The notes below the pieces were generated by a model. It saw only the letters and a program-made list of their open reading frames with translations. It searched no databases and had not been told where the DNA came from. DNA of 64,000 nucleotides from Methanofollis aquaemaris (lineage in GTDB: Archaea > Halobacteriota > Methanomicrobia > Methanomicrobiales > Methanofollaceae), in NCBI RefSeq assembly GCF_017357525.1, contig NZ_CP036172.1:2144561-2208560 (forward strand), in the 5' to 3' direction. The translations under genes were made by a program, and so were the position numbers. The stretch's first letter is position 1; each line of letters starts with the position of its first letter. Shown one piece after another: positions 5,714 to 26,815 of the stretch.

Positions 5714-7777
5714 TTAGGGGCCTCTGATATTGTATCCATAAATTCCTTTGCTGTGATATATCAAATTATAATCCCCCAGCTTAAAGTGATTGAATATGTC
5801 CTCAGATAATGGAATATTTTTGCTATCACCATAGAGATCGGACTGTCTAACCGGTATAGGTTCATGTAGTGTACATTCTCGTAGAATATACAGTGTATCA
5901 TATGTGACTTCTTTGTTTTTCCCTAACACATCTAAACTTCTGATACGAGACCATAAGTTTCCTTTACCAATGATTGTTTGTTCTCCTCCATATAGTCTGT
6001 ATGTCCCGTAATATGCCGAATCTATCTTCACATCACCTGTAGATATCATTGAAGTTGTTTTAACTGCTTGAATCTCGCTATGTGTAAACTGATCTCTTAC
6101 TGTTGTTTCTTTGGCTACGATGGGGTTATCTCGATTGATTGCCGGTGTGGTTATCATAATAAGCGAGAAGAAAAAAATTAGTACAAACAGAGTTATTTTT
6201 TTAAGTTTGTTTGATTTAATTGGTTGAACACTTCTTATAACGAAATCTGAAACAGGAAGAATGGAAAGTGCTACGAGTAAAGGTAGCCATCTTCCGGTTA
6301 ATAGAGTTCGAATACCTAGCAATGGAATTCCATATGCCACAATAAAGAGCAATCCTGTAGAGATTCCAATGGTCTTCTTTCTACTGTCTTTAGAGGATAT
6401 CCATAATAAAATGCCTGGTATAACTAAAAGTGGTATAATCAGATAGTGTGACTGAACTATCAGCGTCTCAATCGCAGTATAGTGGTATTGTTGGCCGACG
6501 ATAAGCTTATCTGCCCCGTAAGCGCCTCCCTCAAGCGCCATAGATCGAACTGCTCGCACCATTGCTTCGAAGAAGGAATTAGCACTGCTTAACTCAGTAA
6601 TGCTCCAATAAAATAGAATCAAAACTCCAAAGAGCGTTAATACAATCAGAGAAGGGGGCGCTTTGTTCTTCTCTTTATTTAAATTGTTAATGCCTTTTGA
6701 GGTTAACGTTATACAACATAAAGCCAATAAAACGACAAATGTGGTTAACTGGTGAGTTATAGTAATTAATACAATAGATGTTATGAGAAGTGCTAAAATT
6801 ACATACGATTTTTTGTCTCGATAAACAAAGTATAGAATAATCGAGAAGCAACATAGGGTGACAGATCCTGCGGTAATATTTGTTATTCCCCGTACAATTA
6901 CGACATTTGTAAGGTTAAACAGTAAGGCTCCCAAGAGCCCTATTTGGCTGTCACACAATGTTTTACCGAGCAGGTATATAAATAATGTTGGTATTATTAT
7001 GCTACCTAATCCAATTGCGATTAAGATGCCTGTTTTAATATCGACACCGGGTATTATCTTCGCTGTTGCTATAAATATATGTAAAATGGGATAATAAAAA
7101 TACTTGCCACTAATCTCAAATGGTGGAATAAAATGCGAATTTGATAAAACTTCCGCAATCGATGCGTGGGTGAATGCATCTGATCCCATTACACTAGGGT
7201 AATTGAAAAATATCCCACTTCGAATGATAAATGAAATATACAGTATTTTTAAAAGCATCGATAATGCAGAGCCTTTACTTTGAGGTATTGCAATTTCGAC
7301 GCCAAGAATGGCCGAAGCGATTGCAATTAGTATAAAGTAAAGATCTGGTCTTGTACAATCACTGGTATACCACAAGATCTGTGCAAATATTAGAACAAAA
7401 CAAAATATTACGTCTAAAATACGCCATTTATGAGCGTTGGGGATCGAAATATTATCCGTGTTTTTAGGATATAGAAAGCTCCTCGGGGGCTTTCTTGGGC
7501 ATAGTATTTCGGGATCAGTGATCTGATTTCCGTTTTCAGCTTTGATTTGGTTACTATGGAAATTATATTGCCTGAGTAGTAGGTATGATACAGACCCCAC
7601 TATGATTGTAAATCCGATATAATATTGACCTAAGACTCCAATGAAACTTAAGATAATTACAATGATACCTAAAACCGCTCCAAACAGGCCTCCTATAATA
7701 TCTAACTTATCAAAAATATATTTTATTGTTTCATGGGGTAATTGCAATACGCTAAGTCTTCTTTTATCTGTATCCAT
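5714..7777 (-). CDS. multi-spanning membrane protein, GT-C glycosyltransferase-like
   Basis: The 687-residue protein has about twelve predicted transmembrane helices in the first 530 residues and then a roughly 130-residue soluble tail. The segment FNYPSVMGSDAFTH (about 193-206) lies in a loop after an early helix, where GT-C enzymes carry their acidic catalytic residue. The later helices and the extracytoplasmic tail fit the PMT/GT39-like or archaeal DUF6541-like plan. A role as a polyprenyl-phosphate-sugar-dependent transferase acting outside the membrane is inferred. An alternative is a polymerase (Wzy-like). The gene is very AT-rich and converges on the plus-strand GT2 gene with a 50-bp gap. 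Confidence 0.7.
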   Translation of the reverse strand: MDTDKRRLSVLQLPHETIKYIFDKLDIIGGLFGAVLGIIVIILSFIGVLGQYYIGFTIIVGSVSYLLLRQYNFHSNQIKAENGNQITDPEILCPRKPPRSFLYPKNTDNISIPNAHKWRILDVIFCFVLIFAQILWYTSDCTRPDLYFILIAIASAILGVEIAIPQSKGSALSMLLKILYISFIIRSGIFFNYPSVMGSDAFTHASIAEVLSNSHFIPPFEISGKYFYYPILHIFIATAKIIPGVDIKTGILIAIGLGSIIIPTLFIYLLGKTLCDSQIGLLGALLFNLTNVVIVRGITNITAGSVTLCCFSIILYFVYRDKKSYVILALLITSIVLITITHQLTTFVVLLALCCITLTSKGINNLNKEKNKAPPSLIVLTLFGVLILFYWSITELSSANSFFEAMVRAVRSMALEGGAYGADKLIVGQQYHYTAIETLIVQSHYLIIPLLVIPGILLWISSKDSRKKTIGISTGLLFIVAYGIPLLGIRTLLTGRWLPLLVALSILPVSDFVIRSVQPIKSNKLKKITLFVLIFFFSLIMITTPAINRDNPIVAKETTVRDQFTHSEIQAVKTTSMISTGDVKIDSAYYGTYRLYGGEQTIIGKGNLWSRIRSLDVLGKNKEVTYDTLYILRECTLHEPIPVRQSDLYGDSKNIPLSEDIFNHFKLGDYNLIYHSKGIYGYNIRGP

Positions 7778-8058: not shown

Positions 8059-9159
8059 CTATATCAAGGAAATGAATATGGAGAGGCTGGAGGCAATTAC
8101 TGTCATGACGCACAAATTTAATATAAATCCCGCAAAGTGTTTTCTAGCCCAAAGGGGATTGAGAGGAATATAAAACCTCCACTTATGATAATACTTTTCA
8201 AAAAATGGATCTTCGGTTATCGTGTACATCTCATTTAATAATTTCAAATGAACATAATGATAATCATAAGCAAAATGATGTTGACGATCATATGCCGTCC
8301 AATAGCCTAGATCATATTCGTGAAGGTGCCTCTTGACTTCTTGTACGCCCAGATCGAATAATTCTTTGGCATTGCTGTCTTTTGTATCTTGGTAGTATTT
8401 ATACAAATCTAATAGGCAGAATAAGTTACCATTTAGGATGGACGATGGTTTATCTGCGTTGCTTTTACAGGCTACTTCTTCAAACCACAATCCACCATCT
8501 TCGGGATCAACATGAAGCACACCTCCAGATGCCATTGGCACCCTCAACGAATTTATAATCAAATTGCATTTATATAGATATTTAGCGTCACATGTTAATT
8601 TATATGCGTTGAGATGGGTGACAAGTGCAGCTGTCTGTGCCATCGCTGAGTACCATGGGAGGTCTTGAGAACTCTTATCGGTAATGAAATTGTACGGATA
8701 TAACACATATCTTCTACCTGAATCTTCATGCCATTCGCATAAGTCCTCAAGGTAATTGACACAACTAAGAAATTGGTTGTAAAACTGGCAATTTTTCGTT
8801 TCAACGTAGAGTTTGTAACAATCGTTTGCTTTGTCAGCAATGGTCAACGGGTTTCTTTGGGTGCCAACAAATACTCCCTGTTTATTTCCATAGTCTACAT
8901 AAGGAACACCATTATTATCTATATGATTTACATTCGGGCCATGCAATTTGAAATAATTTGCCAATTTTCCATATATGGTCAGACTATTGTGTATGGACAG
9001 TGTGGAATTTATATGGGTTAAAACAAATGCGTGAATAATTAGGAGGATTATATAGGCCATATTTCGATACGCCCCGCTTATTGTGAGGGTAACAACAGTA
9101 AAGGTGACTACAAAGATAAGGATAATTAATATGTATTTTGTCCACTCTCTAATCAACAT
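8059..9159 (-). CDS. D-glucuronyl C5-epimerase homologue, membrane-anchored
   Basis: Residues 150-330 match the C-terminal catalytic domain of D-glucuronyl C5-epimerases (PF06662; the animal enzyme converts GlcA to IdoA in heparan sulfate). Visible landmarks are YPYNF (154-158), LPWYSAMAQ (167-175), the LNGNLF block followed by LLDLYKYY (242-256), and YDLGYWTAYD (282-291) followed by DYHYVHLKLLNEMY (299-312). That last pair corresponds to the family's YDxGxxTxYD ... DYHxxHxxQL signature with its key tyrosines. Two N-terminal hydrophobic segments (8-28, 33-50) and one at the C-terminus (344-365) would tether it to the membrane. An AGGTGCTGA stretch precedes the ATG. I infer epimerisation of a uronate within a polymerised or lipid-linked glycan. 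Substrate is unknown. Confidence 0.75.
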   Translation of the reverse strand: MLIREWTKYILIILIFVVTFTVVTLTISGAYRNMAYIILLIIHAFVLTHINSTLSIHNSLTIYGKLANYFKLHGPNVNHIDNNGVPYVDYGNKQGVFVGTQRNPLTIADKANDCYKLYVETKNCQFYNQFLSCVNYLEDLCEWHEDSGRRYVLYPYNFITDKSSQDLPWYSAMAQTAALVTHLNAYKLTCDAKYLYKCNLIINSLRVPMASGGVLHVDPEDGGLWFEEVACKSNADKPSSILNGNLFCLLDLYKYYQDTKDSNAKELFDLGVQEVKRHLHEYDLGYWTAYDRQHHFAYDYHYVHLKLLNEMYTITEDPFFEKYYHKWRFYIPLNPLWARKHFAGFILNLCVMTVIASSLSIFISLI

Positions 9160-9267
9160 TCAGCACCTTTGGTATTAATAATCAGGTTTCCAGAATATAT
9201 AGTATCCGAAAGATTATCTGAGAGGGGGTCCTAAAATTATAAGATCTTTCAGATAACTCTCAGAGTC

Positions 9268-10068
9268 ATGGCCTTCCGGGAAATTGACGATGATCTCTGG
9301 AAGATTGTCCGGAAATATCTCCCGTCAACGAAGCCGCACATCGGTCGGCCCTGGTGTGACCCCCGCGGGTTTTTCAACGGTATCCTGTACGTCTGAGCGC
9401 TGGCTGTACCTGGCACGATGTTCCGACGAAATACGGTACTAAATCGACGGTACACCGGTAGGTACCACCTTGAATTATGCGAGAAGGGGGTGTACCAGGC
9501 GATCTTCCTCGACCTGCTCCGATCCGCTTATGAGATCCGGAAGATCGATCTCTCGCACTGTGCGATGGATACGAAGGACATTCTGGCTAAAAAAGGGGAT
9601 CAACCGGCTATGATGGCTATAAAAAGGTAAATAGGAACAAGTTGAGTGCTCTAGTCGATCGAAAAGGCCTCTTTTACTTGCCTACACACAGTTTACCCTG
9701 CCAGAGTCCATGATTTCCAGTTCTACGAGCCAACCCTCGAAGCATTTGAGATTCCAGAAGTGCAGGATGACCTCGTGATCATTTCCGCAAATGCAGCCTA
9801 CGATGCTCGGGAGATTCGACAATACAACCGAAAAAGAGGGATAAAAGTAATATCTCAGTCAACAAGATCTCTCGGAAACATCTGAAGCAGGGAAGACGGA
9901 TAAGGTTCGATCCAGAACTCAAAAAGGGGCGAAGTGCCATTGAACGGCCCCTTAAGATGTATTGAGGCTTTTAAGAAGATTATTCCGCGTTAGGGGCGAT
10001 ATGAATGCTCATTCCTAGGACTGATTTATTTGGCGTGTGTCGTCCTGACCAGGAAAATATTGGGATGA
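9268..10068 (+). pseudogene. IS5-type transposase, decayed by stops and frameshifts
   Basis: The translation starts MAFREIDDDLWKIV and continues HIGRPWCDPRGFFNGILYV, then a stop. In other frames it goes on through YHLELCEKGVYQAIFLDLL, KIDLSHCAMDTKDILAKKG, VQDDLVIISANAAYDAREI and RFDPELKKGRSAIERP to an ILG-stop end. These are the successive blocks of an IS5/IS1182-like DDE transposase, but several frameshifts and in-frame stops break them. The domain order is intact, so this is one inactivated copy rather than scattered pieces. It lies between the C5-epimerase gene and a second, related IS5 remnant. Confidence 0.85.
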
Positions 10069-10226
10069 CCTCCACTACTGAAAGTTCGGAGAGACTTTAA
10101 AGATTTATACGCCTTCTAGCACTGCAATAGAGAGTGGGCATATTATCAGCCTAGATGCCTTTAAAGCGCTATAACAACATGTCCACAGTCTCGATTATCT
10201 TCGAGTTCATCCCATAACTCTCCTGA

Positions 10227-11145
10227 TCATGATTCACATGCGAACATGATCAATCCGAGGAATGATTCTTCTTTTCTTTCATGCCTTAGAGCAATCTTCT
10301 TAAATGCTTTAATCCAACTTAAAAATCGTTCGATAGCTCCTCTTTTCTTGTAAAGTTCTGGATCAAAAGGTACTGTTCTTTTTTTCTCTGGATCTTCCGT
10401 GTTTCTTGTATTTATTTGAATATTGCTCTTTATTCTGTTTTGGTCATTGTATGCTCTTATTTTTATTGTATCGTACGCTGGATCTGCGGATATGAATGTT
10501 GGTTTGAATTTATTTCCGAAAAACGTGAATCCTTCAAGGGTTTGTATATAAAGTGTTGAATCGTGGCTATTTTCAGGGGATATAACACAAGAAAGTGGTC
10601 TGCCGTTTCGATCGACTATTACGCTCAGTTTGTTCTCTTTTATTTTCTTATGGTCATCAAATCCGATGATGCCCCTTTTTTTGCGGGAATAGACTTCGTA
10701 TCTATCGAACAATGCGGAAGATCAACGATTTGAGATCGTATCCTCGCTGAAGTAGATCAAAAATATCTCCTTATTGGCGCTTTTCTCGCATAGATATTGA
10801 TGAAATCGATGTACCGTCGATTTGGTTCCATGTTTTTCGGGTACGTCGCTCCATGTACATCTGGTAGTAAGAACAAAGAGAATTCCATTCATTAAACGAC
10901 GAGGATCAGAACGAGGTCGTCCAGTGTGAGGTTTCTGAGGGGGGAGGTAATTGCTGATGATTGGGTAGTGCCCCATAAAAGAACTGAAAATTTATTTCGG
11001 GGAATCCGACAGAATTGCATCGAGCAGTGACCTGTATTCATAACATAAACTCACACAGGGAGAGTGTTTCTATTATCAGTTTTTTCTTGGGGCACTACCG
11101 ATGATTGATCAGGGGGTCATCATCGATATCGCGGAATGCCGCGAC
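10227..11145 (-). pseudogene. second IS5-type transposase, frameshifted and interrupted by a MITE
   Basis: On the minus strand the reading frame runs AFRDIDDDPLINH (about 11145-11100), is interrupted by a 136-bp element, and resumes as QLPPQKPHTGRPRSDPRRLM. It continues to GTKSTVHRFHQYLCEKS and stops near 10722. After at least one frameshift it continues with DLPHCSIDTKS, AKKG, LSVIVDRNGRPLSCVISPE and VPFDPELYKKRGAIERFLSW, and ends at 10227. It is a paralogue of the remnant at 9268-10068 but AT-richer. The ATG at 10976 is contributed by the inserted element and is not the native start. Confidence 0.85.
10964..11099. mobile_element. 136-bp MITE with GGTAGTGCCCC ends and 8-bp target duplication
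   Basis: The element begins GGTAGTGCCCCA and ends with its reverse complement. The terminal inverted repeats match at about 24 of the first 28 positions. The 8 bases GATGATTG occur immediately before (10956-10963) and after (11100-11107), a perfect target-site duplication. It holds no gene. Removing it and one copy of the duplication restores the N-terminal reading frame of the surrounding IS5 transposase, confirming insertion into a pre-existing IS. The family of the mobilising transposase is unclear. Confidence 0.9.
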
Positions 11146-11362
11146 ATGTGGTTTTAATCGAATGCAATTTATAATCAGGCAATGTGGATTGGGATCACTT
11201 TTGGGATATGCTCTTCTATTGCAAAATTATCTTATATCCCTCAACTCCTATATTTAATGGAGATAATTATCGTGGTGAGTTTAATTTATAAAAATATTTG
11301 TCAGCCTATGATAACTTGATGAGTAAGGTATTAGAGATAATATTAGATGGTGTGTGGTGGCA

Positions 11363-12229
11363 ATGGATCAAAACATTCATGGTAAATATCTTCAAAAAGC
11401 TATTGCAGTTTTGAGGATATTTAGCCCCTATGTAATTTACTATAAGTTATTAGATGCAGTATTAGACAGAAGTAGATTTGCAAATGTAATGACACTTGAA
11501 CAAATAAGGGATGGCATTAAAAAGGATACTATATTTATATTCGGATCCGGTTTTTCGATAAACTCGATAACCCCAGCAGAGTTTGAAACAATTAGTAATA
11601 TTGGAGATACTCTTTCTTTTAACTATTTTTTTAAGGGGATGTTTGTTCCAATTAAATATCATATCTGCGGAGAGGTCGCAAGTACTGGGCACTATGGACC
11701 AATCATGTTTGACAGGGATCGTCAACAGCGGATAGACGCCTACTATTCTGAACTTTTAAAAAATAGATTTTATAGTGACACCATTTTCCTTTTACGGTAT
11801 AAACGCGATTATACAATCTCACCGATCGCTGCATGGTCTTTCTTTAGCTCTAAATATTTTGTTGACCGTAAAGTGTGCCTGTATGGTATAAAAAGATCGG
11901 TTGAATTGAATAAAAATGGGTCTTCAATTAGCCATAATGGTGGTACATTGTCCGATGCAGTTAATATTGCATATATTTTAGGGTATAAAAAAATAGTTTT
12001 AGTAGGCGTAGATTTGTATGATCGGCGGTATTTCTGGCTTAATGAAAGTGAAACCCGAGATATAGATCGCAAGAGAAGCGCAAATTTCTTTGACGTACAT
12101 GACACTGCAAAACCGATCATTAAGTTAATGGGAACATGGCGAGAGACTCTAGAAGAGGAGGGAGTCGCTTTGTATGTCTATAATCCAAAATCACTACTTC
12201 GTGAAGTCCTACCTCTATACAGTGTTTGA
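11363..12229 (+). CDS. putative sialyltransferase, GT42 (CstI/CstII)-like
   Basis: The AT-rich 288-residue protein follows the layout of Campylobacter GT42 sialyltransferases. It has an N-terminal nucleotide-binding segment IFIFGSGFSINSI (about 57-69), a central GGTLSDAVNIAYILGYKK block (193-210) leading to VLVGVDLYD (212-220), a conserved-position histidine in FDVHD (His246), and a final LYVYNPKSLL (270-279). In CstII the matching elements bind CMP-Neu5Ac and supply the catalytic His. An alternative is a DUF115/MptE-like relative with the same fold logic. CMP-nonulosonate synthesis genes 4-8 kb downstream support a role in transferring a sialic-acid-like sugar. The ATG at 11363 is preferred over a GTG at 11354. 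Confidence 0.6.
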   Translation: MDQNIHGKYLQKAIAVLRIFSPYVIYYKLLDAVLDRSRFANVMTLEQIRDGIKKDTIFIFGSGFSINSITPAEFETISNIGDTLSFNYFFKGMFVPIKYHICGEVASTGHYGPIMFDRDRQQRIDAYYSELLKNRFYSDTIFLLRYKRDYTISPIAAWSFFSSKYFVDRKVCLYGIKRSVELNKNGSSISHNGGTLSDAVNIAYILGYKKIVLVGVDLYDRRYFWLNESETRDIDRKRSANFFDVHDTAKPIIKLMGTWRETLEEEGVALYVYNPKSLLREVLPLYSV

Positions 12230-12444
12230 ACTAACCCGACATGAGGTTTTCAACAGAACACTTTATTTAGAATCGATCTAAATCGGTGGGAGGGCTTACT
12301 GTTACTACATTTGGGTATGAAAAATTTCTAGCGACGATCTACCCAAGTTTGCGACAATATAGATCAGTATCAAGAGTTTAACACGAGATGGGGCAATTGT
12401 TACAAGAGATACGTTTATCATCCCCATTAGCAACATATTGATGA

Positions 12445-13050
12445 ATGATTCTGTCGAAACAAGATTATCTCTTTTATTTAGGTGCAGATAAGGCTTCTTT
12501 GAACCAAAAAAGGAAATATCCGAGGCTACTAGTTGACGAAGTTTGGATATATCAACGATTACTAAGGAAATGCGAGTATTGGAACAATTGCAAGAAAAAC
12601 AAAACTCTTATTCATAAGTTATATTTTCAGGTACTTTTATTCAGGTTAACAAGGCAAGGTATATGTTTAGGATTCACGATCGGACTTAATTGTTTTGGAC
12701 CCGGACTTAGCATCGCTCATCATGGAACTATTGTTGTAAATGGACGTGCCCGCATTGGTGCGAATTGCCGTGTTTATCCCGGCGTAAATATAGGCGTAAA
12801 TCCGGGTGATCCAATAAATGTGCCCTCCATAGGTGATAATGTCTATATTGGTCCCGGTGCTAAGATTTTTGGGAATATTCAAATAGCAAATGATATCGCC
12901 ATAGGAGCGAATGCTGTGGTTAATAAATCTTTTTTAGAGGCTGGAATTACGATTGGTGGAGTGCCTGCTCGTAAAATATCTGATAAGAGATCTAGTGTCG
13001 TAAAAGGAACTCAATTAGTGAATTCGTTGCAGGATCTTGATCACGGTTGA
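12445..13050 (+). CDS. serine-acetyltransferase-like hexapeptide-repeat acyltransferase
   Basis: The 201-residue protein has an alpha-helical N-terminus (1-75) and a left-handed beta-helix of hexapeptide repeats (about 76-185). The SIAHHGTIVVNG (about 90-101) and GVNIGVNPGDP blocks carry the family's acetyl-CoA-binding and His positions. The closest architecture is CysE-like serine O-acetyltransferases used in capsule clusters (colanic-acid-type acyltransferases). The likely role is O- or N-acetylation of a glycan residue, using acetyl-CoA in the cytoplasm. It is AT-rich like the GT42-like gene 215 bp upstream. It is flanked downstream by a repeat and an IS256 remnant. Confidence 0.8.
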   Translation: MILSKQDYLFYLGADKASLNQKRKYPRLLVDEVWIYQRLLRKCEYWNNCKKNKTLIHKLYFQVLLFRLTRQGICLGFTIGLNCFGPGLSIAHHGTIVVNGRARIGANCRVYPGVNIGVNPGDPINVPSIGDNVYIGPGAKIFGNIQIANDIAIGANAVVNKSFLEAGITIGGVPARKISDKRSSVVKGTQLVNSLQDLDHG

Positions 13051-13099
13051 TAGTGTAACGATCTCTCTGTAAAATTGAATTGACCTTGGATCCAACTAA

Positions 13100-13349
13100 G
13101 TATCCCAAAAGTATCCCGGGCTCGATCCATCGCCTGGATCGAGACTCTTCTCGGTCATTCCCCTGCCTTCCCCGCTTCAATCGTAATCGGGGAGCGGACC
13201 GATCAGCCGTGTCGTCCACCAAGAGAAGAAAGAGTTTTTAATTGCTCTCTTCCCCCAGGGGGAAGCCCCTCGGACCTCCTACGGCGAAAATAGTGGTGGG
13301 GCCGGCAGCAATCTCTTGAACGATGTCGTACTTCAGAAACGTCTTCCCA
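13100..13349. repeat. dispersed repeat copy, variant shared with 1180-1520
   Basis: Blocks such as TCCATC..GGATCGAGACT, GCCGTGTCGTCCAC, a GC-rich hairpin, GCGAAAATAG, GGCAGCAATCTC and TTTTGGGATGACCTC align in order with those near 1180-1460. No coding potential is evident. It directly abuts the IS256 remnant. Confidence 0.55.
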
Positions 13350-14455
13350 TCACCGATCAAGACCAGAGAGTTTTGGGATGACCTCGAAGATAATCTCTCC
13401 GATCACGAGGGTGTTATGAAGACTCCCACCACCTGATTCCTCAATCAGGTGATGCTCGCAGAGGCACTGCAGCAGGCGAGAGTTACTCCGTATGAACGGA
13501 CCGATGCGCGGAAGGCGCATTGGAACGGCTACAAAGACTGATCCCTCAAGACCCAGTATGGTGAGACAATCTTCTGGAAACCGCAGATCAGGGAGTTCCC
13601 ATTTGAAACACAGGTCTTTGGACACTATTGCCCGGGTAGAGAAAACTTTGGTGGATGCGATCGTCGAATCCTACCTCTAAGGCGTCTCAACGAGAAGGAT
13701 CCAAGAGGCCGTTACTCACTTGGAGATCGACCAGATCTCCCCCGCTTTGGTCTCCAGGATGGCTAAAGACCTCGACGACCAAGTTCAGGAATTCTTCGTG
13801 CGACCGATTGAACGGCCAATCCCGTACCTCTATGTGGATGCCTCCTACTTACAAGGGTGCGGGAGGAAGTTCGATACTTCACCAAAGCAGTCCTAGTGGT
13901 CGTCGGAGTGTGGGAAGATGATTATCTCGATATCATAGGATTTAAAGTTATGGAATGTGAGAATTAAGCGTTCTGGTTCGCTTTTTTCTATGAAATCAAG
14001 GAAAGAGGGGTATTTGGGCTCCAAATGGTCATCTACGATGGCCATATCGGCATCCAGAAGGCGGCCTTAGCCGCCTTCCTCGGTGCATCTTGGCGGATGT
14101 GCTCGGTTCACTCAAGGGCGGTCTTGAGCAAAATCTCCGAAAACACCAGAAGGAGGTTGCAGAGAGCTTGAAAGAGGCCTATGGAAGTGGACAAAGTCTA
14201 CTAGGATCTTGCCGATGACCTGAATGCACACGGATACTGGAAATAAGCCAATACGATCGAGCTGTTTCTTCCGGGGTTCATGAATTACACAGTATTCTCC
14301 AAAGAACACTGAAAGCGAATCCGAACCACCAACATGATGGGGGGGGTCGGTAAGGAATTGAAACGAAGGACCAAAGTCGTAGAGGCATTCCCAAATGGGG
14401 AATCTCTCCTCAGGAGAGTTGGATCGATCCAATTAATTAAGGCGTCGCGTATAGC
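13350..14455 (+). pseudogene. IS256 (mutator-type) transposase, heavily decayed
   Basis: Across frames the translation gives the order of an IS256-family transposase: WDDLEDNLSDH, MLAEALQQARVTPYERTD, a segment ending RPIPYLYVDASYL-like (out of frame), AVLVVVGVWEDDYLDIIGFK, KERGVFGLQMVIYDGHIGI, GASWRMCSVHSRAVLSKIS, and HWKRIRTTNMMGGVGKELKRRTKVVEAFPNGESLLRRVGS. The catalytic-domain signatures YDGHIGI and KRIRTTNM are clear, but stops and frameshifts occur throughout. It cannot encode an active enzyme. Together with the two IS5 remnants it marks 9.2-14.5 kb as a former insertion hot spot. Confidence 0.85.
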
Positions 14456-14524
14456 ATTTATCATCAGGATCAGAAGAGTACTGTGACGACCTTAATATGC
14501 TCCTCTTGGAGAATCCTTTCTAGA

Positions 14525-14540
14525 CAAATTTAAATAACCT
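14525..14540 (+). promoter_or_regulatory. TATA-box promoter of the flippase gene
   Basis: AAATTTAAATAACC, a good archaeal TATA-box match, lies about 25 bp upstream of the predicted start codon. Transcription would therefore begin at or next to the start codon, fitting a leaderless mRNA; no Shine-Dalgarno sequence is visible. Confidence 0.5.
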
Positions 14541-14559
14541 CCTCTCCAAATAACTGTCA

Positions 14560-16011
14560 TTGCATGGATATCAACAATTCGCCCGGCGAATCGGCCTCAT
14601 AGGAATAACCAACCTCCTCATCGGCCTGAGCGGACTCATCCTTCTCCCGATCCTCACCAAAACTCTCCCAATTGAAGAATACGGGACATACGTCCAGATC
14701 ACCGTGACCATCGGTCTTGTCCCCGGGGTGGTGATGCTCGGCCTCTCTTACACGATGGTCAGGTTCCTTGCGGCAACGAAATCACGGGAAGAAATCCAAG
14801 AAGGCTACTACTCGATCGTAGGCATTACAATCCTGACTGCGGGCCTTGCTTCGGCCACTCTCTTCATCCTGGCCGAACCCCTCGGCACTGCACTCTTCGA
14901 CGGCCGGACGGCGGTCACCCGGATCCTTGCTCTCGCTGTCTTTTTGGAGTGCATGAATCTCCTCCAGTTTAACTACTTCAGGACATTCCAGCAGATTAAG
15001 AAATACTCCTCTCTCCTCTTCTTCAAGACCTGCCTGCAGTTAATCATGGTTGGAGGGCTTGTCCTTGCTGGCTATGGGATTTTCGGTGCGGTGATGGGGC
15101 TGCTTATCACCGACCTGACTCTGTTCCTCATTATGGGTGCTCTCATCATCTCTGAGATTGGGTTTGCTGTCCCGAAGTTCATACATATAAGGGAGTACCT
15201 CTCCTTTGGCTTTCCAACGGTTCCAGGGAACCTCTCAAGTTGGGTGGTGAACTCAAGTGACAGGTATGTGATTGCCCTTTTCTTGGGAACTGCTTATGTG
15301 GGTTACTATGCGCCAGGGTATACACTTGGGAATATCATTGGGATGTTTGTAGCGCCGTTTTCATTTATCTTGCCTGCAGTTCTTTCGAAGTATTATGATG
15401 AGAATAATCTTCAGGAAGTTCAAAATATCCTTCAGTATTCTCTGAAGTATTTTCTTATGTTAGCAGTTCCATCGTTTGTTGGGTTGTCCATTCTTTCAAA
15501 ACCGTTGCTGGCAATTTTGTCGACACCAGAAATTGCGGCAAATAGTTATTTGATCACTCCATTTATCGCTTTAAGTGCCTTGTTCTTTGGAGTATATGCA
15601 ATTATTTTCCAGATCTTAATTTTAGAGAAAAATACCCGGATTACAGCAATGGTATGGATTATTGCTGCGGTGATTAATTTTGGGCTTAACCTTGTTGTAA
15701 TACCATATCTGGGAATCCTCGGTGCCGCCATTACGACACTGATTTCATTTATATTTGCTCTTGGATTTATTGCATATTATCTGATGGACAAATCCAAGAC
15801 GCCTTTATTATATAATATTGTCTCTAGAGCCATTTTTCCAATAATATTGGCATCTATTTCAATGATTCCAGTTTTAGTTGCTTTTAATCCCGTTGGAATA
15901 CTATCAATATTAATAACTGTGGCTTTGTGTGCTGCTATATATTTTGTTCTGATATATGCGCTCAAAGGAGTAACTAAAGAAGAAATATACTTTTTCAAGA
16001 ACTTTGTTTGA
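14560..16011 (+). CDS. polysaccharide flippase, Wzx/MOP superfamily
   Basis: The 483-residue protein has about 12-14 transmembrane helices and begins with the Wzx/polysaccharide-biosynthesis-family N-terminus NLLIGLSGLILLPILTKTLP followed by EEYGTY. The family exports lipid-linked oligosaccharides across the cytoplasmic membrane. The SSDRYVIALFLG (about 226-237) and GYYAPGYTLG segments are typical. The start is taken as TTG at 14560, about where a leaderless transcript would begin. The 5' half is GC-richer than the 3' half, which drifts to AT-rich sequence like the following nonulosonate genes. It probably exports the glycan built by neighbouring transferases. Confidence 0.9.
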   Translation: MHGYQQFARRIGLIGITNLLIGLSGLILLPILTKTLPIEEYGTYVQITVTIGLVPGVVMLGLSYTMVRFLAATKSREEIQEGYYSIVGITILTAGLASATLFILAEPLGTALFDGRTAVTRILALAVFLECMNLLQFNYFRTFQQIKKYSSLLFFKTCLQLIMVGGLVLAGYGIFGAVMGLLITDLTLFLIMGALIISEIGFAVPKFIHIREYLSFGFPTVPGNLSSWVVNSSDRYVIALFLGTAYVGYYAPGYTLGNIIGMFVAPFSFILPAVLSKYYDENNLQEVQNILQYSLKYFLMLAVPSFVGLSILSKPLLAILSTPEIAANSYLITPFIALSALFFGVYAIIFQILILEKNTRITAMVWIIAAVINFGLNLVVIPYLGILGAAITTLISFIFALGFIAYYLMDKSKTPLLYNIVSRAIFPIILASISMIPVLVAFNPVGILSILITVALCAAIYFVLIYALKGVTKEEIYFFKNFV

Positions 16012-16400
16012 TCATTCGAGAATTACCTTCTGTGATTCTCTGTTAATATGGTATGGATCTGGATTCAAACAGACCCACAAAAACTTTTTTCATGTTACTT
16101 TCCGCCTTTTGGCTGAATTGATTTCTCTGATTTCATGGAGTAACACCATGTGACTGCTGTTTTCTTCTATCTCGTATGGGGGTTATAATCCGCACTTGGG
16201 AGTAAAATCCAGAAAACGGAACGGAGATCGTGAAGAGATGAATTGCTGTCCTATCCCAGTGTAAAATAGGAGATTGAGGGAGTGAAATCACCTCCGTCAG
16301 TATTCAGGGCGAGGAGTGTAAGAAACAAGACATATAATTTTAGAATTATGCTGGCGCGTCTATCCGATGGTTAATACGCAAGTTCTATATCTAGTAATGT
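16012..16400. other. intergenic region before the nonulosonate operon
   Basis: I see no gene here. A T-rich stretch (ACTTTTTTCATG near 16083) may terminate flippase transcription. A TATA-like ACATATAATTTTAG near 16329 lies about 70-95 bp before the neuA-like start and is a promoter candidate. Confidence 0.4.
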
Positions 16401-17138
16401 ATGAAAAATTATGGGTTATTCAAAATGGTGGTTGGAAAAAATATTGCGGTTATACCAGCACGGGCAGGAAGTAAAAGGGTGATTAATAAAAATATTAGAG
16501 AAATGTGTGGGCGCCCTCTTATCTCCTATACTATTGAAGCGGCAAAAAAATGTGGCCTATTTTCACATATTATTGTCAGCACAGATGGCGAGGAAATTGC
16601 TGCAATATCTGAAGAATATGGTGCAGAAGTACCCTTTATCAGAGATAATAACTTGGCTGATGATTATTGTCCTGTATCGCTGGTTACACTTGATGCAATC
16701 AACAAAATGGATTTTAAATCAGATCAATATGAAAATGTGTGTCAATTAATGGCAAACTGTCCTTTAAGGGATGATATTGATATATTAAATAGTCACCAGC
16801 AGTTTTTAGAAACTCGTTCTGATGCTCAAATATCGGTTACTAAATATGGATGGTTCAATCCTTGGTGGGCAATGAAATGTGATGTCAATAATAAACTAAC
16901 ACCGATCTTTGAACAACAATTAAGTGAGCGCAGTCAGGATTTATCTGAGTTATATTGCCCAACAGGAGCAATTTGGTGGGCGAAAATCAACACACTCCGT
17001 AAAGAAAGAACATTTCACTGTACGAACCGAACGGGGTGGGTAATCCCCTGGGAAAAGGGTGTTGATATTGATACGGAAGATGATTGGAAATTAGCTGAAA
17101 TCCTTATGAAGAATAAACAATGGATTAAAAATGACTGA
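16401..17138 (+). CDS. neuA: acylneuraminate (nonulosonate) cytidylyltransferase
   Basis: This NeuA/LegF/PseF-type enzyme would activate a nonulosonic acid with CTP to give the CMP-sugar. The nucleotide-binding signature IAVIPARAGSKR (about 14-25) is followed by NKNIREMCGRPLISYTIEAA. The ADDYCPVSLVTLDA and NRTGWVIPWEKGVDIDTEDDW blocks (the last with the metal-binding acidic residues) are typical. Length (245) is close to the family's usual 225-240; an internal ATG at 16425 would give the common MVVGKNIAVIPARAG start. It overlaps the next gene by 8 bp, showing an operon. Whether the substrate is Neu5Ac, legionaminic or pseudaminic acid cannot be told from sequence. Confidence 0.85.
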   Translation: MKNYGLFKMVVGKNIAVIPARAGSKRVINKNIREMCGRPLISYTIEAAKKCGLFSHIIVSTDGEEIAAISEEYGAEVPFIRDNNLADDYCPVSLVTLDAINKMDFKSDQYENVCQLMANCPLRDDIDILNSHQQFLETRSDAQISVTKYGWFNPWWAMKCDVNNKLTPIFEQQLSERSQDLSELYCPTGAIWWAKINTLRKERTFHCTNRTGWVIPWEKGVDIDTEDDWKLAEILMKNKQWIKND

Positions 17139-18036
17139 TAATAAATTTGCGCTCTTTACAACTGTATATCCTGAAGGGATACAATATTTGAATGATTGGT
17201 ATTCCTCTGTTTATCATCAGGATACTCCCGATTTTGATATCTGGATTGGATGCGATCGTCTCTCGATCGAAGAGGCACAAAAAGCAATGGGGGATCGTAT
17301 TGAAGCGACATGGATCATTCGAAATGAGGATGAATCGCCAATTCAATTCAGAGAGAGAGCAATTCGGAAGATGATTAATCAGTATTCAGGAATTATATTT
17401 GTTGATAGTGATGATATCCTTGAACCTTCCCGTGTGAGCGCCGCTCAAAGTGCTCTCCAGTGTTATGATGGGTATGGGTGTTCCATGAATATTATTGATG
17501 AAGGCGGACATGATCTAGCAATAGAATTTAAACGGCCTCGAAATACTGGCCTCTTGGATTTATTGCTCCGCAATAATATTTTTGGTCTCTCCAATACTGC
17601 ATATCGCTCGGACATATTAAAGAAATGTCTCCCATTTCCGAAAAAATGTGTATTGCTTGATTGGTTCATTGCGACAAGGGCTCTGAATAACAATGCAAAT
17701 CTGTTTTTTGATGATATTGCTAGAATGAAATACCGTCAGCATTCTGCAAACACTGCGCGGGTGTTGCCTCCTTTTTCTGCTCAGCAGATTCTCTCTGCAA
17801 CAAAGTTAGTCCTTCAGCATTATGATCTTGTTTTGAGATATATTCCTGAATTGAGTCCTTTCTTTAAGAAACAGATCCCTTTATTTCAGGATGAAGTTCT
17901 TCTGTTTTATAACTGCATGATACAATCCACGGAAACGTTAGATGAATATATCGAAAGATTGAATAAAATGCCTGCAAAGCACATATGGTGGTCATGTGTT
18001 GCTCACCCTGATCTGGAGGAGTTATGGAAACAATAG
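17131..18036 (+). CDS. GT2-like glycosyltransferase in the nonulosonate operon
   Basis: The 301-residue protein has a GT-A-like start (FALFTTVYPEGIQYLNDWYSSV, read in two halves) with an IIFVDSDDILEPSRV block (about 88-102) containing the DxDD metal-binding motif, and a later LLDWFIATRALN. No membrane segment is evident. It overlaps neuA by 8 bp and the neuB-like gene by 13 bp, so the three are co-translated. A link to nonulosonate synthesis or transfer is inferred from this position. The fold-level assignment is firmer than the reaction. Confidence 0.7.
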   Translation: MTDNKFALFTTVYPEGIQYLNDWYSSVYHQDTPDFDIWIGCDRLSIEEAQKAMGDRIEATWIIRNEDESPIQFRERAIRKMINQYSGIIFVDSDDILEPSRVSAAQSALQCYDGYGCSMNIIDEGGHDLAIEFKRPRNTGLLDLLLRNNIFGLSNTAYRSDILKKCLPFPKKCVLLDWFIATRALNNNANLFFDDIARMKYRQHSANTARVLPPFSAQQILSATKLVLQHYDLVLRYIPELSPFFKKQIPLFQDEVLLFYNCMIQSTETLDEYIERLNKMPAKHIWWSCVAHPDLEELWKQ

Positions 18037-19076
18037 ACATTGATGGTAAGATTGTCGGAAAAGGGAAAGTACCTTATTTTATCGCTGAGATTGGGTCAAA
18101 CCATAATGGTGATATGGATCTATGCAAAAAAATGATCGATGCAGCAATTGCATGCGGTGCTGATGCTGTTAAATTTCAGTCTTGGACAAAATCGTCGTTG
18201 ATCTCAAAGGCTGAATATGCTCGGAATACCGAATATTCAGATAAGAAAAAACATTTTGGATCTCTGGAGGCGATGGTTGAGAAATATCAGTTCACAACCG
18301 ATCAACATAAAGAGATCATATCATATTGCAAAAGTGCAGGCATTACTTTTCTATCAAGTTGTTTCTCGAATAGTGAGGTGGATTTGCTTGTCTCTCTTGA
18401 CGTGCCTGTTTTCAAGATCGCATCAATGGATATCAACAACCTTCCATTCCTGGAATATGTTGCGAGCAAAGGTAGACCAGTAATTCTTTCCACTGGAATG
18501 GCATCCCTTGGAGAGATTGAAACCGCTATTGCTACATTACGCTCATCTGGATCCGGTTCAATCGCCCTATTGCACTGTGTTTCTATCTATCCGCCGAATT
18601 TTGAAACCATTAATTTGCGTAATATCTCAACACTTGAAATGGCCTTTGACATGCCGGTGGGATTTAGTGATCATACGTTAGGAACTGCAATTCCCACTGC
18701 TGCTATTGCTTTAGGTGCATGTATCATTGAAAAGCATTTTACGCTTGATAAAAACCTTCTGGGGTGGGATCATGCGATCTCTGCCGATCCTGTTGAGATG
18801 AAAAGAATTGTTCAGGACGGAAAAGAGGTTTTTCTCTCTCTTGGAAATACTTTAAGATCAGTAAGTGATGCTGAACTTGAGAAAAGAAAAAAGTTTCGCC
18901 GAAGTGTAGTTCTAAAGAGAAACATGAAAAAGGGAGAGATTATTGATAGAAATGATATAGATTTCAAACGACCTGGAACTGGAATCGGCCCTGAAGAAAT
19001 AAAATATCTCATTGACAGGTCTCTGAGTGAGGATGTGGAGGCTGATGTTGAATTGAAGTGGTCTGATATCAATTGA
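18024..19076 (+). CDS. neuB: N-acetylneuraminate/legionaminate/pseudaminate synthase
   Basis: The NeuB family condenses a hexosamine with phosphoenolpyruvate to make a nine-carbon nonulosonic acid. Residues 1-285 form the TIM-barrel domain: IAEIGSNHNGDMDLCKKMI (about 20-38), GADAVKFQSW, FKIASMDINNLPFLEY, STGMASLGEIETA, and FSDHTLG followed by the EKHFTLDK loop. Residues 290-350 form the SAF/antifreeze-like domain (RRSVVLKRNMKKGEII). Length 350 is normal. It overlaps the upstream transferase by 13 bp. The sequence does not settle which of the three sugars is made; the adjacent 4,6-dehydratase and aminotransferase favour a legionaminic- or pseudaminic-type product. Confidence 0.88.
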   Translation: METIDIDGKIVGKGKVPYFIAEIGSNHNGDMDLCKKMIDAAIACGADAVKFQSWTKSSLISKAEYARNTEYSDKKKHFGSLEAMVEKYQFTTDQHKEIISYCKSAGITFLSSCFSNSEVDLLVSLDVPVFKIASMDINNLPFLEYVASKGRPVILSTGMASLGEIETAIATLRSSGSGSIALLHCVSIYPPNFETINLRNISTLEMAFDMPVGFSDHTLGTAIPTAAIALGACIIEKHFTLDKNLLGWDHAISADPVEMKRIVQDGKEVFLSLGNTLRSVSDAELEKRKKFRRSVVLKRNMKKGEIIDRNDIDFKRPGTGIGPEEIKYLIDRSLSEDVEADVELKWSDIN

Positions 19077-19121
19077 AATTCTTTATTTTGTTTCAGTACA
19101 AAATATTATATCAGAGAAATT

Positions 19122-19547
19122 ATGAGATTCAAAGATTGGGAATATCCTGAAATTAAGAATGGGTTGCTAACAAAATATAACTGGGTAGTTCAGCATCCTG
19201 ATAAATTAATCTTAGGATATAAATCTGATATTGGAACCTTTTCTTATATTAATGCAAAATATGGAGTAATAATTGAAGATTATGCACAAATTGGATCACA
19301 TTGCTCTATATATTCAGTTTCCACAATTGATAATAAGGAAGGTTCGGTTGTTTTAAAGAAGAATTGTAAAATCGGCACACATTCTGTGTTGATGCCTGGC
19401 GTTACAGTTGGAGAAAACTCGATTGTAGGAGCTTTTAGTTTTGTAAATAAAGATATTCCAGACAATGTAATTGCATATGGTGTACCCGCCAAAGTTGTGA
19501 AAATGATTGACCATAACTGTGAAAATAATGACACCTTAGGTGACTGA
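19122..19547 (+). CDS. hexapeptide-repeat acetyltransferase (sugar-amine type)
   Basis: The 141-residue left-handed beta-helix protein has repeats from about residue 40 to 125, including IEDYAQIGSHCSIYSVSTID and KKNCKIGTHSVLMPGVTVG, then a capping VNKDIPDNVIAYGVPAKVVK. It resembles WbbJ/maa-type and sugar N-acetyltransferases (WbpD/FdtC-like). Lying between the neuB-like and DegT aminotransferase genes, it is a reasonable candidate for N-acetylating the aminated UDP-sugar. It could equally serve the diamino-uronate operon downstream, which lacks an obvious acetyltransferase. It stops 3 bp before the next ATG. Confidence 0.75.
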   Translation: MRFKDWEYPEIKNGLLTKYNWVVQHPDKLILGYKSDIGTFSYINAKYGVIIEDYAQIGSHCSIYSVSTIDNKEGSVVLKKNCKIGTHSVLMPGVTVGENSIVGAFSFVNKDIPDNVIAYGVPAKVVKMIDHNCENNDTLGD

Positions 19548-19550
19548 GAA

Positions 19551-20678
19551 ATGGCATGGAAAATCCCCCTCTTTAAAATGTACTGGGATGAAGACGACGT
19601 CAGTGCTGTCAGTGAAGCGATTCGCTCAGGGATGAATTGGGCGGTCGGTTCAAATATCCCTAGGTTCGAAGAAGAAATCGCGCAGTACGTCGGAACGAAA
19701 TATTGTATTACATTCAATTCTGGAACCTCAGCCCTCCACGCTGCCCTCATTGCCCATGGGATCACCCCTGGCGATGAGGTGATCGTCCCCTCCTTCACCT
19801 TCATAGCAACCGCAAACGCCCCCCAATTTGTCGGCGCAAAACCGGTCTTTGCAGACATTGAAGAAACCACCTGTGGATTAGATCCAGAAGATGTAGTCGA
19901 ACGAATTACTCCTAAGACAAGGGCGATCATGCCTGTCCATTATGGTGGATGCCCCTGCATGATTCGGGAGCTGCGCGAGATCGCTGATGACCATGATCTG
20001 ATCCTCATCGAAGATGCTGCAGAGGCCTTTGGGGCGGCTATCGACGGCAAAAAAGTTGGAACCTTCGGCGATTCGGCGATGATGAGTTTTTGCCAGAATA
20101 AAATCATCACGACCGGAGAGGGGGGTGCGATCGTGACCGATTCACGAGACGTATACGAAAAAATGAAACTCATTCAATCGCATGGCCGCCTAGAAACTGC
20201 GGATTATTTCTCAACCACCGCAGTGATGGATTACGTCTCTCTCGGTTATAACTTCAGGATGTCGAATATCACCGCGGCACTGGGTATCGCTCAGCTTGGC
20301 AAGGTCGAGGATATCATCCGGATGAGGTGGGTTGATGCAGCGTATTATATCAAGCGTCTGAAGGCCGAAGTGCCAGAGTGCGTCATTCCAGAACTTCCAG
20401 AGGATTATTATCATGTCTATCAGTTGTTCTCTCTTCGGGTGAAGGATCGTGATGCCTTGATGCAGTATCTCGAAAAGAAAGGGATCATGACGAAAATCTA
20501 TTTCTCGCCTGTCCATTATACGCATTTTTACCGTTCCCAGATGAAAAATCCATACAACTTGCCAGCAACCGAAAAAGTCTCAGAAGATATTCTCAGTCTT
20601 CCCTTCTACCCTGGAATTTCACGAGATGATATTGATTATGTGATAGATTCCGTGAAGGAATTTTATGAGGTGGCCTGA
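19551..20678 (+). CDS. DegT/DnrJ/EryC1/StrS aminotransferase (nonulosonate precursor)
   Basis: A PLP-dependent sugar aminotransferase of 375 residues, normal for the family. The PLP lysine is Lys184 in SFCQNKIITTGEGG, with the IEDAAEAFG acidic motif at 153-161 and the FNSGTSALHAAL phosphate-binding block at 55-66. It would add an amino group to a 4-keto UDP-sugar such as that made by the adjacent dehydratase (LegC/PseC-like role, inferred). An AGGTGACTGAGAA stretch precedes its ATG, and the dehydratase starts right after its stop. It is GC-richer than the upstream neuA/neuB genes. Confidence 0.85.
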   Translation: MAWKIPLFKMYWDEDDVSAVSEAIRSGMNWAVGSNIPRFEEEIAQYVGTKYCITFNSGTSALHAALIAHGITPGDEVIVPSFTFIATANAPQFVGAKPVFADIEETTCGLDPEDVVERITPKTRAIMPVHYGGCPCMIRELREIADDHDLILIEDAAEAFGAAIDGKKVGTFGDSAMMSFCQNKIITTGEGGAIVTDSRDVYEKMKLIQSHGRLETADYFSTTAVMDYVSLGYNFRMSNITAALGIAQLGKVEDIIRMRWVDAAYYIKRLKAEVPECVIPELPEDYYHVYQLFSLRVKDRDALMQYLEKKGIMTKIYFSPVHYTHFYRSQMKNPYNLPATEKVSEDILSLPFYPGISRDDIDYVIDSVKEFYEVA

Positions 20679-21707
20679 ATGGATGAAGTTGATTTCTACT
20701 GTGGCAAATCGATCCTTGTCACCGGGGGGGTTGGATCGATCGGAAAAGAACTGGTAAAAAAAATTCTGAAAATGGATGTAGGTTCAGTCAGGGTTCTGGA
20801 TAATAATGAGACTGGGCTCTTTGACCTGGGGCAGGAACTACAATCAGATAAAATTCGATTGCTGGTTGGTGATGTGAGGGATAAAGAACGATTGAAACGC
20901 GCCATGGAGGGGATTGACGTAGTGTTTCATGCTGCAGCCCTGAAGCACGTCCCTCTCTGTGAGTATAACCCATTCGATGCGGTTAAGACCAACATTCTTG
21001 GAACCCAGAATGTGCTCAATGTTGCTCTTGATGAGGAGGTAGAGAAGGTCATCGTTATCAGCACCGATAAAGCTGCCAATCCTGTAAATGTCATGGGTGC
21101 AACAAAACTTCTTGCAGAGAGATTGACCCTCTCTGCAAATTTCTATAGGGGGAAGAGAAAGACTGTTTTTTCCTGTGTACGGTTTGGAAATGTGATGGCA
21201 TCGCGTGGCTCTGTTATTCCCCTATTTATGGAACAGATTAAAGGGGGAGGCCCTGTTACTGTCACCGATCCTGAAATGACTCGGTTCATCATGGATATTC
21301 CAAAGGCAACCGGTCTGATATTAGAAGCAGGGAAAATAGCACAGCATGGTGAGATCTTTATTCTGAAGATGCCTGTACTTAAAATTGGTGACCTTGCAGA
21401 TGTTATGATCGCTTTTTGCACCCAAAAATATGGTCAGAGTGTCAATGACGTACGGATCAAAGTTACTGGCGCCCGCCCAGGAGAGAAAAAATATGAAGAA
21501 TTGATGACAGAATCTGAGGCAGAACATGCATATGAGAATGAACATATGTTCATTGTTCTGCCTCTCCATGTCAAGGAAAAGATGCAGAGCAGTATTCTGC
21601 CAGATGGATTTTATAAATCTCAGAAAAAGCGGTATTCTTCGTCTGAAGAGGCAATAATTAACAAAAGGGGTATTTTTGATTTGTTACGCAATTTATATCC
21701 TTTTTGA
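20679..21707 (+). CDS. UDP-sugar 4,6-dehydratase, short FlaA1/PseB/LegB type
   Basis: An SDR enzyme with TGGVGSIGKE (15-24) for NAD(P) binding, HAAALKHVPLCE (about 87-98) and STDKAANPVNVMGATK (about 127-142). The MxxxK form of the catalytic motif marks the FlaA1/PseB/CapD group of UDP-GlcNAc 4,6-dehydratases. The 342-residue length fits the soluble short type. Its ATG follows the aminotransferase stop directly (TGAATG), with GAGGTGG upstream, so the two are co-translated. It probably makes the 4-keto-6-deoxy intermediate that the aminotransferase uses. AT-rich sequence follows its stop in the convergent gap to the minus-strand operon. Confidence 0.88.
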   Translation: MDEVDFYCGKSILVTGGVGSIGKELVKKILKMDVGSVRVLDNNETGLFDLGQELQSDKIRLLVGDVRDKERLKRAMEGIDVVFHAAALKHVPLCEYNPFDAVKTNILGTQNVLNVALDEEVEKVIVISTDKAANPVNVMGATKLLAERLTLSANFYRGKRKTVFSCVRFGNVMASRGSVIPLFMEQIKGGGPVTVTDPEMTRFIMDIPKATGLILEAGKIAQHGEIFILKMPVLKIGDLADVMIAFCTQKYGQSVNDVRIKVTGARPGEKKYEELMTESEAEHAYENEHMFIVLPLHVKEKMQSSILPDGFYKSQKKRYSSSEEAIINKRGIFDLLRNLYPF

Positions 21708-25747: not shown

Positions 25748-26815
25748 GGTATACATCTCGATATCGATTCATAATCCGCGATGATCGCGGCGATCTGTTC
25801 TGCGGCGGTGCCGTCGCCGAAGCGAGTTGAGTGGCGGCGGTTCTGAACCCCCGCCTGCTGCGCCTCCGCGATGATCCTCTCCCGGTCCGCGCCGACGAGG
25901 ACGTTCCAGCCGTCCTTGATGGTCTCCACCCACTCGGTGTTCTCCCGCAGGGTGACGCAGGGCACCTGGAGGATATAGGCCTCCTTCTGCACCCCGCCCG
26001 AGTCGGTGAGGACCGCACGCCTTGCTGAGGAGGTGGAGCATCTCCAGATACGGGAGTGGCTCTGTGATGCGAACGTTCTCCCCCGTCTTGATGCCGTACG
26101 CGGTGAGGTACTTGCGGGTGCGCGGATGGGCCGGGAAGATCACCGGCAGGTCGAGGGCGGCGAAGGCCTCCATGATCGACCGCAGGTGCTCCTCGTGGTC
26201 GGTGTTGCCGGCGCGGTGGACGGTGGCGAGATAGTAGCCGCCCTCTTCCAGCTCCGGGAAGGGTGCGTGCTCCTCTGCGAGAGTGCGGTTGTGGCGGAGG
26301 GCGTCGACCATCACGTCGCCGGTGAGGTGGACGCCGGCCGTGACCCCTTCGGCCGCCAGGTTCTGCACCGCCGTCTCGGTCGGGCAGAAGAGGAGGGTAG
26401 AGCAGTGGTCGGTGAGCACGCGGTTCACCTCTTCTGGCATCGTCCGGTCGAAACTTCGCAGGCCGGCCTCGACGTGCGCCACCGGGATATGGAGCTTTGC
26501 CGCTGCCAGGGCGCCGGCGAGGGTGGAGTTCGTGTCACCGTAGACCAGTACCATTCCGGGATCTTCCTGGAGGATGACCTCCTCGATGGCGGCGAGCATC
26601 CTCCCGGTCTGCTCACCATGGCGGCCTGACCCGATCCCCAGGTTGTAGTCGGGGGTCGGGATCCCGAGGTCGCGGAAGAAGACGTCTGAGAGAGCGGCGT
26701 CATAGTGCTGGCCGGTATGGACGAGCACCTCCTGGTGGTTTCGTCGGAGGGCGGCGGAGAGCGGGGCACACTTGATGAACTGGGGGCGAGCCCCGACGAT
26801 GGAGAGGACCTTCAC
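25744..26815 (-). pseudogene. wecB: UDP-GlcNAc 2-epimerase (WecB/WbpI-like), single frameshift
   Basis: The N-terminal 270 residues are an intact non-hydrolysing 2-epimerase: VGARPQFIKCAPL, VYGDTNSTLAGALAA, HVEAGLRSFDRTMPEEVNR and LATVHRAGNTDHEEHL. After LPYLEMLHLLSKA the frame shifts near 26016-26024; the adjacent frame continues AVLTDSGGVQKEAYILQVP and ENTEWVETIKDGWNVLVG to a stop at 25744. Removing one base there restores a normal protein of about 355 residues. It may be a real inactivation or a sequencing error. It overlaps the upstream oxidoreductase by 4 bp and the downstream wecC by 4 bp. An intact wecB at 43.5 kb could substitute. Confidence 0.85.

Follow-up and report, generated by a model that had tools for sequence, protein, structure and literature searches.

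How a methanogenic archaeon might make a sialic acid-like sugar and place it on its surface is the question raised by a locus in Methanofollis aquaemaris. The locus lies in a stretch of 64,000 nucleotides (contig NZ_CP036172.1, positions 2,144,561 to 2,208,560; termed the window here, with positions counted from its first letter) inside a complete archaeal genome of 2.75 Mb. Very few archaea have been demonstrated to contain nonulosonic acids. An earlier, sequence-only reading had proposed that NeuA-like, NeuB-like, hexapeptide acetyltransferase, DegT aminotransferase and dehydratase genes form an ordered set, and all of them are present, intact and family-matched within an operon at 16401-21707. 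It had also placed a candidate sialyltransferase of the GT42 type 4 kb upstream; this is the open reading frame 11354-12229, separated from the operon start by 4.2 kb that hold a flippase gene and transposase remnants. Judged from gene content and sequence, it is likely that the operon makes a nonulosonate activated with cytidine monophosphate (CMP), most likely a legionaminic-like one, and that the 11354-12229 protein transfers this sugar to a lipid-linked precursor, the glycan then being flipped and attached. Both the nonulosonic-acid route and the GT42-like assignment withstood comparison by profile, fold, key residues and gene neighborhood against a control.

The resemblance of the protein to GT42 is greater than chance would give. 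A profile built from 22 homologues and searched against all PDB sequences with hmmsearch recovered Cst-I (E 2.3e-5) and Cst-II (E 1.3e-4) as its only real matches and did not reach the pyrophosphokinase MptE (8sd5), whereas a PDB search with the single candidate sequence returned noise only. Alignment with Cst by hhalign scored 94.5% (E 8e-8), covering the GYK.I.L.G.D core only. The sole Pfam match of the protein is to PF01973, the MptE-like family, at 19.5 bits (E 9e-4), below the gathering score of 34.6; this model touches 17 of the 22 family members.

An AlphaFold model of the protein has a mean predicted local distance difference test score (pLDDT) of 72.8, with a core above 90. Foldseek ranks Cst-I first (3.9e-6), followed by MptE 8sd5 (8.2e-6), Cst-II (1.3e-5) and, weakly, human ST8SiaIII; the probability is 1.00 for 2p2v and 2x62, with template modeling scores of about 0.44-0.49. 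The predicted structure is a variant of the GT-A fold that is also found in MptE. The comparison with Cst-II that had been suggested thus gives the match looked for, but gives an equal one to MptE, and the fold alone cannot decide between GT42 and MptE. Nor is the choice between an MptE/DUF115 protein and one with a CMP-sugar site, which had been offered as a means of refutation, a true dichotomy, since the pseudaminic acid transferase Maf belongs to that very Pfam family. PF01973 includes the catalytic domain of Maf, the closest structure of which is Cst-II (PMC7142665, PMC11339370).

It is the residues, not the fold, that set the candidate apart from MptE. The FGSGFS start, the GGT...GYKKIVLVGVD core, a histidine at the Cst-II catalytic position (H249, within HDT) and the YNPKSLL end are all in the protein, as first described. 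All 22 members carry Asn in the column of Cst-II N31, the cytidine Asn (N90 in the window protein), and keep the equivalents of G152 and D154. Among the other CMP-site residues of Cst-II, the S132 column holds Ser or Thr in 21 of 22 (Thr in the window protein), and Y156 and Y162 correspond to Y222 and W228. In Cst-II the general base has been established as H188, with H202 as its counterpart in Cst-I (PMC4202792). H249 aligns with H188 when HMMER is used with the family profile and with H202, in the HSK of Cst-I, when MAFFT is used; MAFFT placed H184 of Cst-II, not H188, in this column, and the HMMER result together with the Cst-I row favors H188/H202. Histidine occupies the column in 14 of the 22 members, including the window protein, mostly as HxT, and H249 would act as the general base.

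Homologues are rare. The phylum search recovered them in 4 of 393 genomes, a fifth archaeal copy belongs to the haloarchaea order, and a scan across 84,980 species gave 21 loci; these belong to Bacteroidota, Verrucomicrobiota, Omnitrophota, Bacillota, Acidobacteriota, Pseudomonadota and Halorubrum aquaticum. None turned up in viral contigs, phages or plasmids, and a further match of the phylum search, in genome G230, was rejected on our own reading as a DUF1152-like false positive. neuB is present in every one of the 25 genomes that have a homologue; across the phylum it occurs in 75 of 393 (hypergeometric p 0.001, calculated on the four archaea sampled). Nine of ten homologues lie no more than 20 kb from neuB, compared with 14 of 117 GT4 genes in the same ten genomes (Fisher p 4e-7), so that simple clustering of all surface-glycan genes is no explanation. 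Likewise, neuB and/or a CMP-synthetase gene is found within 10 kb on either side in 16 of the 21 scanned loci, which come from unrelated phyla. This linkage ties the family to nonulosonate synthesis but does not demonstrate the reaction, and a selection bias is possible, since conserved short patterns served to find the homologues. The family tree has long branches and most of its forks are open, with moderate support only for the split that groups a subgroup lacking the histidine with the copy in genome G026, and no claim is thus made on a donor lineage. The G026 copy (L015:9358-10299) was also read as lacking the histidine and groups with most of that subgroup; alongside the GT42-like gene, its locus (L015:1-10299) has NeuC, DegT, a dehydratase, one full NeuB and two partial NeuB frames, and the second NeuB there is without its N-terminal half.

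A number of observations weigh against the proposed assignment. The GT42 model PF06002 (CST-I; gathering score 25 bits) does not match the window protein, has no match anywhere in the genome at a threshold as loose as E 0.1, and reaches only 1 of the 22 family members, at E 0.086; the protein is for this reason called GT42-like rather than filed as a GT42 member. The same model found nothing in the homologue genomes, a result that is uninformative as a test of absence. MptE ranks as high as Cst-II by Foldseek. Cst-II N9, a CMP-site residue, is replaced by Ser (S65), and neither N51 nor R129 is conserved; R129, N51 and Y81 have been assigned to acceptor binding in Cst-II (PMC4202792), and a different acceptor is therefore to be expected. 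Eight of the 22 members are without the histidine. These are L029, L030, L031, L033, L035, L038, L042 and L044, with Met, Glu, Gln or another residue in its place, and most adjoin nonulosonate genes; as several are still linked to neuB, the base may differ there. A homologue is present in only 4 of the 75 NeuB-bearing archaea, none was found in the examined flank of a sister operon in genome G057 (L061), and the operon is parted from the GT42-like gene by the remnant of a Mutator-family transposase.

The features of the locus are listed below. The sequence-only reading had passed over the sixth operon gene, which encodes a GT2-like protein, as well as the second hexapeptide gene and the flippase gene upstream.

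Features of the window in and around the nonulosonate operon
Feature	Position	Strand	Evidence
DUF354 (GT-B-like) gene at island edge	3519-4637	+	Epimerase_2 trace E 0.32; weak lead for UDP removal
Broken IS4/IS5-type transposases	9160-11354	both	adjoin GT42-like gene; contain 122-nt inverted repeat
GT42-like candidate CMP-nonulosonate transferase, 291 residues	11354-12229 (GTG; in-frame ATG 11363)	+	family profile, fold, residues
Second hexapeptide acyltransferase (EpsC/CysE-like)	12445-13050	+	Pfam Hexapep 6.8e-8; EpsC best NCBIfam model, below cut-off
Mutator-family (IS256-type) transposase remnant	13050-14560	+	frames broken; Transposase_mut 1.8e-11 and 4.4e-12 on two pieces
Polysaccharide flippase (Wzx-type)	14560-16011	+	Polysacc_synt_3 8.8e-19
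CMP-nonulosonate synthetase (PseF/LegF-like)	16401-17138	+	CTP_transf_3/PseF, TIGR03584 213.5 bits, cut-off 205.7; omega 0.17 vs G057
GT2-like protein, VDSDD motif, 301 residues	17131-18036	+	no family match alone; homologues reach GT2 at 5e-4
NeuB-family nonulosonate synthase	18024-19076	+	NeuB + SAF domains; NeuB 298 bits
Hexapeptide N-acetyltransferase (NeuD/PglD-like)	19122-19547	+	Hexapep family; TIGR03570 best, 65 bits
DegT/DnrJ aminotransferase (LegC/PseC step)	19551-20678	+	PF01041 382 bits; PseC 303, LegC 274, both below cut-off
UDP-GlcNAc 4,6-dehydratase, soluble (LegB step)	20679-21707	+	Polysacc_synt_2 PF02719 365 bits; signature TDKAANPVNVMGATK
Split WecB gene	25769-26815	-	Epimerase_2 pieces 26018-26743 and 25780-26031; frameshift or sequencing error
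WecB, intact non-hydrolysing UDP-GlcNAc 2-epimerase	43518-44642	+	wecB 430.6 bits; NeuC 71.9 vs cut-off 235.9

In the pathway that we infer from these genes, uridine diphosphate-N-acetylglucosamine (UDP-GlcNAc) would be dehydrated (20679), transaminated (19551) and N-acetylated (19122). The last of these is presumed to be the 4-amino-sugar N-acetylation of the LegH step, and the hexapeptide protein has a relative in a legionaminic-type cluster of genome G453 (E 7.8e-42). UDP would then be removed by an unrecognized enzyme, after which NeuB (18024) would condense the sugar with phosphoenolpyruvate and the synthetase (16401) would activate it with cytidine triphosphate. The 11354-12229 protein is envisaged as a soluble transferase with the GT42/GT29/Maf fold, which in the cytoplasm would take the sugar from CMP and add it to a lipid-linked precursor of the glycan. 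The flippase is the likely exporter of this lipid-linked glycan, which could then be attached to a surface protein or polymer.

The step of UDP removal is a further point against this scheme. Neither NeuC (LegG) nor PseG had been seen at the outset, and a search of the complete genome bears this out: PseG has no match at E 10, and the only three Epimerase_2 genes are each assigned to WecB by NCBIfam, two being intact and one frameshifted. Three tentative candidates for the step are the WecB at 43518, a possible stand-in for LegG, the DUF354 gene at 3519, and the GT2-like gene at 17131. The DUF354 gene, with no more than an Epimerase_2 trace at E 0.32, was rejected as the missing hydrolase and is kept as a weak lead. 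The operon in G057, which belongs to another family, matches at about 80% DNA identity across 5.3 kb, has the same gene order, and has no NeuC in the 13 kb examined around it; compared with it, each of the six genes shows purifying selection (omega 0.07-0.17). The pathway is thus under selection without a recognized hydrolysing epimerase in the operon, which argues that one step is filled by an unrecognized enzyme. The G057 operon also has a formyltransferase and a PIG-L deacetylase inserted between neuB and the hexapeptide gene (L061:8093-9567), which points to a nonulosonate with an N-formyl group, like that of Halorubrum sp. PV6.

Alternative explanations concern both the transferase and its sugar. 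It is very unlikely that the 11354 protein, with its MptE-like or Maf-like fold, uses another nucleotide substrate, as a relative of the pterin pyrophosphokinase or a nucleotidyl-type enzyme of surface islands. The PF01973 match and the Foldseek rank of MptE speak for this; however, a separate MptE is encoded at C1:1179963 of the genome, with AADAA and TDLDG motifs (ADGA and SDLDG in 8sd5), the patterns AD[AG]A and [TS]DLDG are absent from the candidate, the family profile finds Cst-I and Cst-II rather than 8sd5, and linkage to neuB is unexpected for a pterin enzyme. It is also improbable that the GT2-like protein is the nonulosonate transferase, with the GT42-like gene a leftover or working with another island. 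Its frame overlaps those of both the cytidylyltransferase and neuB, it evolves under an omega of 0.17, and in all three genomes that have it (G000, G016 and G057; window 17131-18036, L061:10786-11691 and L062:9091-9996) it lies directly upstream of neuB, while the GT42-like gene is surrounded by transposase remnants. Against this, GT2-type enzymes with a DxD motif normally use UDP or guanosine diphosphate sugars, the GT2-like family is restricted to these 3 of 393 genomes, and the GT42-like reading frame is intact with all the family residues and has neuB-linked relatives across phyla. An AlphaFold model of the GT2-like protein, made without an alignment, reached a pLDDT of 44.5 and was not used.

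That the product is pseudaminic acid or a Pse-like stereoisomer is unlikely, although the synthetase leans to PseF and passes its cut-off, and the aminotransferase and dehydratase score highest with the PseC and PseB models, albeit far below their cut-offs. The signature TDK...Mx3K is typical of the retaining PglF/WbpM enzymes, and PseB/FlaA1 has Tyr in place of the Met (PMC8987622). The window dehydratase carries TDKAANPVNVMGATK, with Met where the Yx3K of PseB would have Tyr, so that of the PseB/LegB type originally assigned, a dehydratase is indeed present and favors the legionaminic side, and the PseB reading was rejected. The same signature occurs in four other archaeal genomes with a homologue, which have a legionaminic-type set with NeuC in the cluster. 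The window NeuB falls below the cut-offs of both curated models (NnaB 367.4 against 399.65; PseI 306.9 against 340.25) but favors NnaB by 60 bits, compared with 150 for Halorubrum LegI and with 150 to 214 bits in the opposite direction for the true PseI of L033 and L038; moreover, the genome has no PseG and the operon no PseH-type GNAT. The sugar is thus probably legionaminic-like by sequence, Met alone being no proof of C5 retention; the Met signature and the lean of NeuB favor this type, but the intermediate NeuB and PseF-like synthetase leave a third stereoisomer open. Finally, it is unlikely that the pathway is dead in this genome after loss of LegG. The missing NeuC and PseG and the nearby transposase remnants would fit such a loss; intact genes under purifying selection, the sister operon that likewise has no NeuC, and three WecB genes that could contribute argue against it.

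The active, legionaminic-type route favored here would reside in a horizontally moving surface-glycan island. The G+C content is 37-45% across the island (window 4-22 kb) as against 57-66% in the backbone, and third-position G+C is 0.25-0.53 in island genes as against 0.77-0.83 in the flanking UDP-sugar genes. The oligosaccharyltransferase AglB lies about 5 kb from the GT2-like gene in G016; with that protein as the query, tblastn found no AglB in the window, in about 50 kb downstream or in 18 kb upstream. Elsewhere in the island, positions 8059-9159 (minus strand) encode a protein of the D-glucuronyl C5-epimerase C-terminal family (PF06662, E 4e-40), a uronic acid epimerase of the heparan/alginate type within the surface island of an archaeon, and 5714-7777 (minus strand) is a 687-residue open reading frame with no Pfam match at E 0.01.

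More broadly, and only tentatively, the GT42-like family may comprise unrecognized CMP-nonulosonate transferases of archaea and at least six bacterial phyla, with operons that lack NeuC and PseG removing UDP in another way and possibly making a stereoisomer that is neither legionaminic nor pseudaminic acid. If so, the missing archaeal transferase would be supplied. A family that accompanies neuB from phylum to phylum, retains the base of the sialyltransferases and escapes the GT42 model offers a testable candidate transferase in both domains, and an annotation as MptE-like/DUF115 can hide sugar transferases. Its newness rests on the lack of a GT42/PF06002 match and on a literature search, with subscription journals outside its scope, that found no paper.

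Among known systems, Cst-I and Cst-II of Campylobacter jejuni (CAZy GT42) share with the candidate the fold, the GxGxS nucleotide loop, the Asn at N31, the SxxxxxxA..GYK.I.L.G.D core, the general-base His and a C-terminal P.SLL. They differ from it in an identity of about 17-19%, in the PF06002 match and in N9, N51 and R129 as noted above, and in lacking its extra N-terminal region of about 55 residues. The flagellin pseudaminyltransferase Maf resembles it in fold class and in the nonulosonate donor proposed for it; however, Maf has additional N- and C-terminal domains (PMC11339370) around a central PF01973 domain, whereas the candidate is a single domain. MptE, the 6-hydroxymethylpterin pyrophosphokinase, shares the fold and not the motifs. 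The Sps legionaminic pathway of Bacillus subtilis follows the same UDP-linked logic of dehydratase, aminotransferase, NeuB and cytidylyltransferase, but uses SpsG for UDP removal and has no GT42 protein; a transferase gap has also been stated for bacterial legionaminic acid (PMC7439481). Halorubrum sp. PV6 has homologues of the window's LegB, LegC, LegI, LegF and NeuD-like proteins, together with LegG and a formyltransferase that the window lacks, and no nonulosonate transferase has been assigned there (PMC6137143). In Halorubrum aquaticum, a relative of the GT42-like gene lies 17 kb from neuB, in a gene set that matches the Leg genes studied experimentally in PV6 (PMC6137143).

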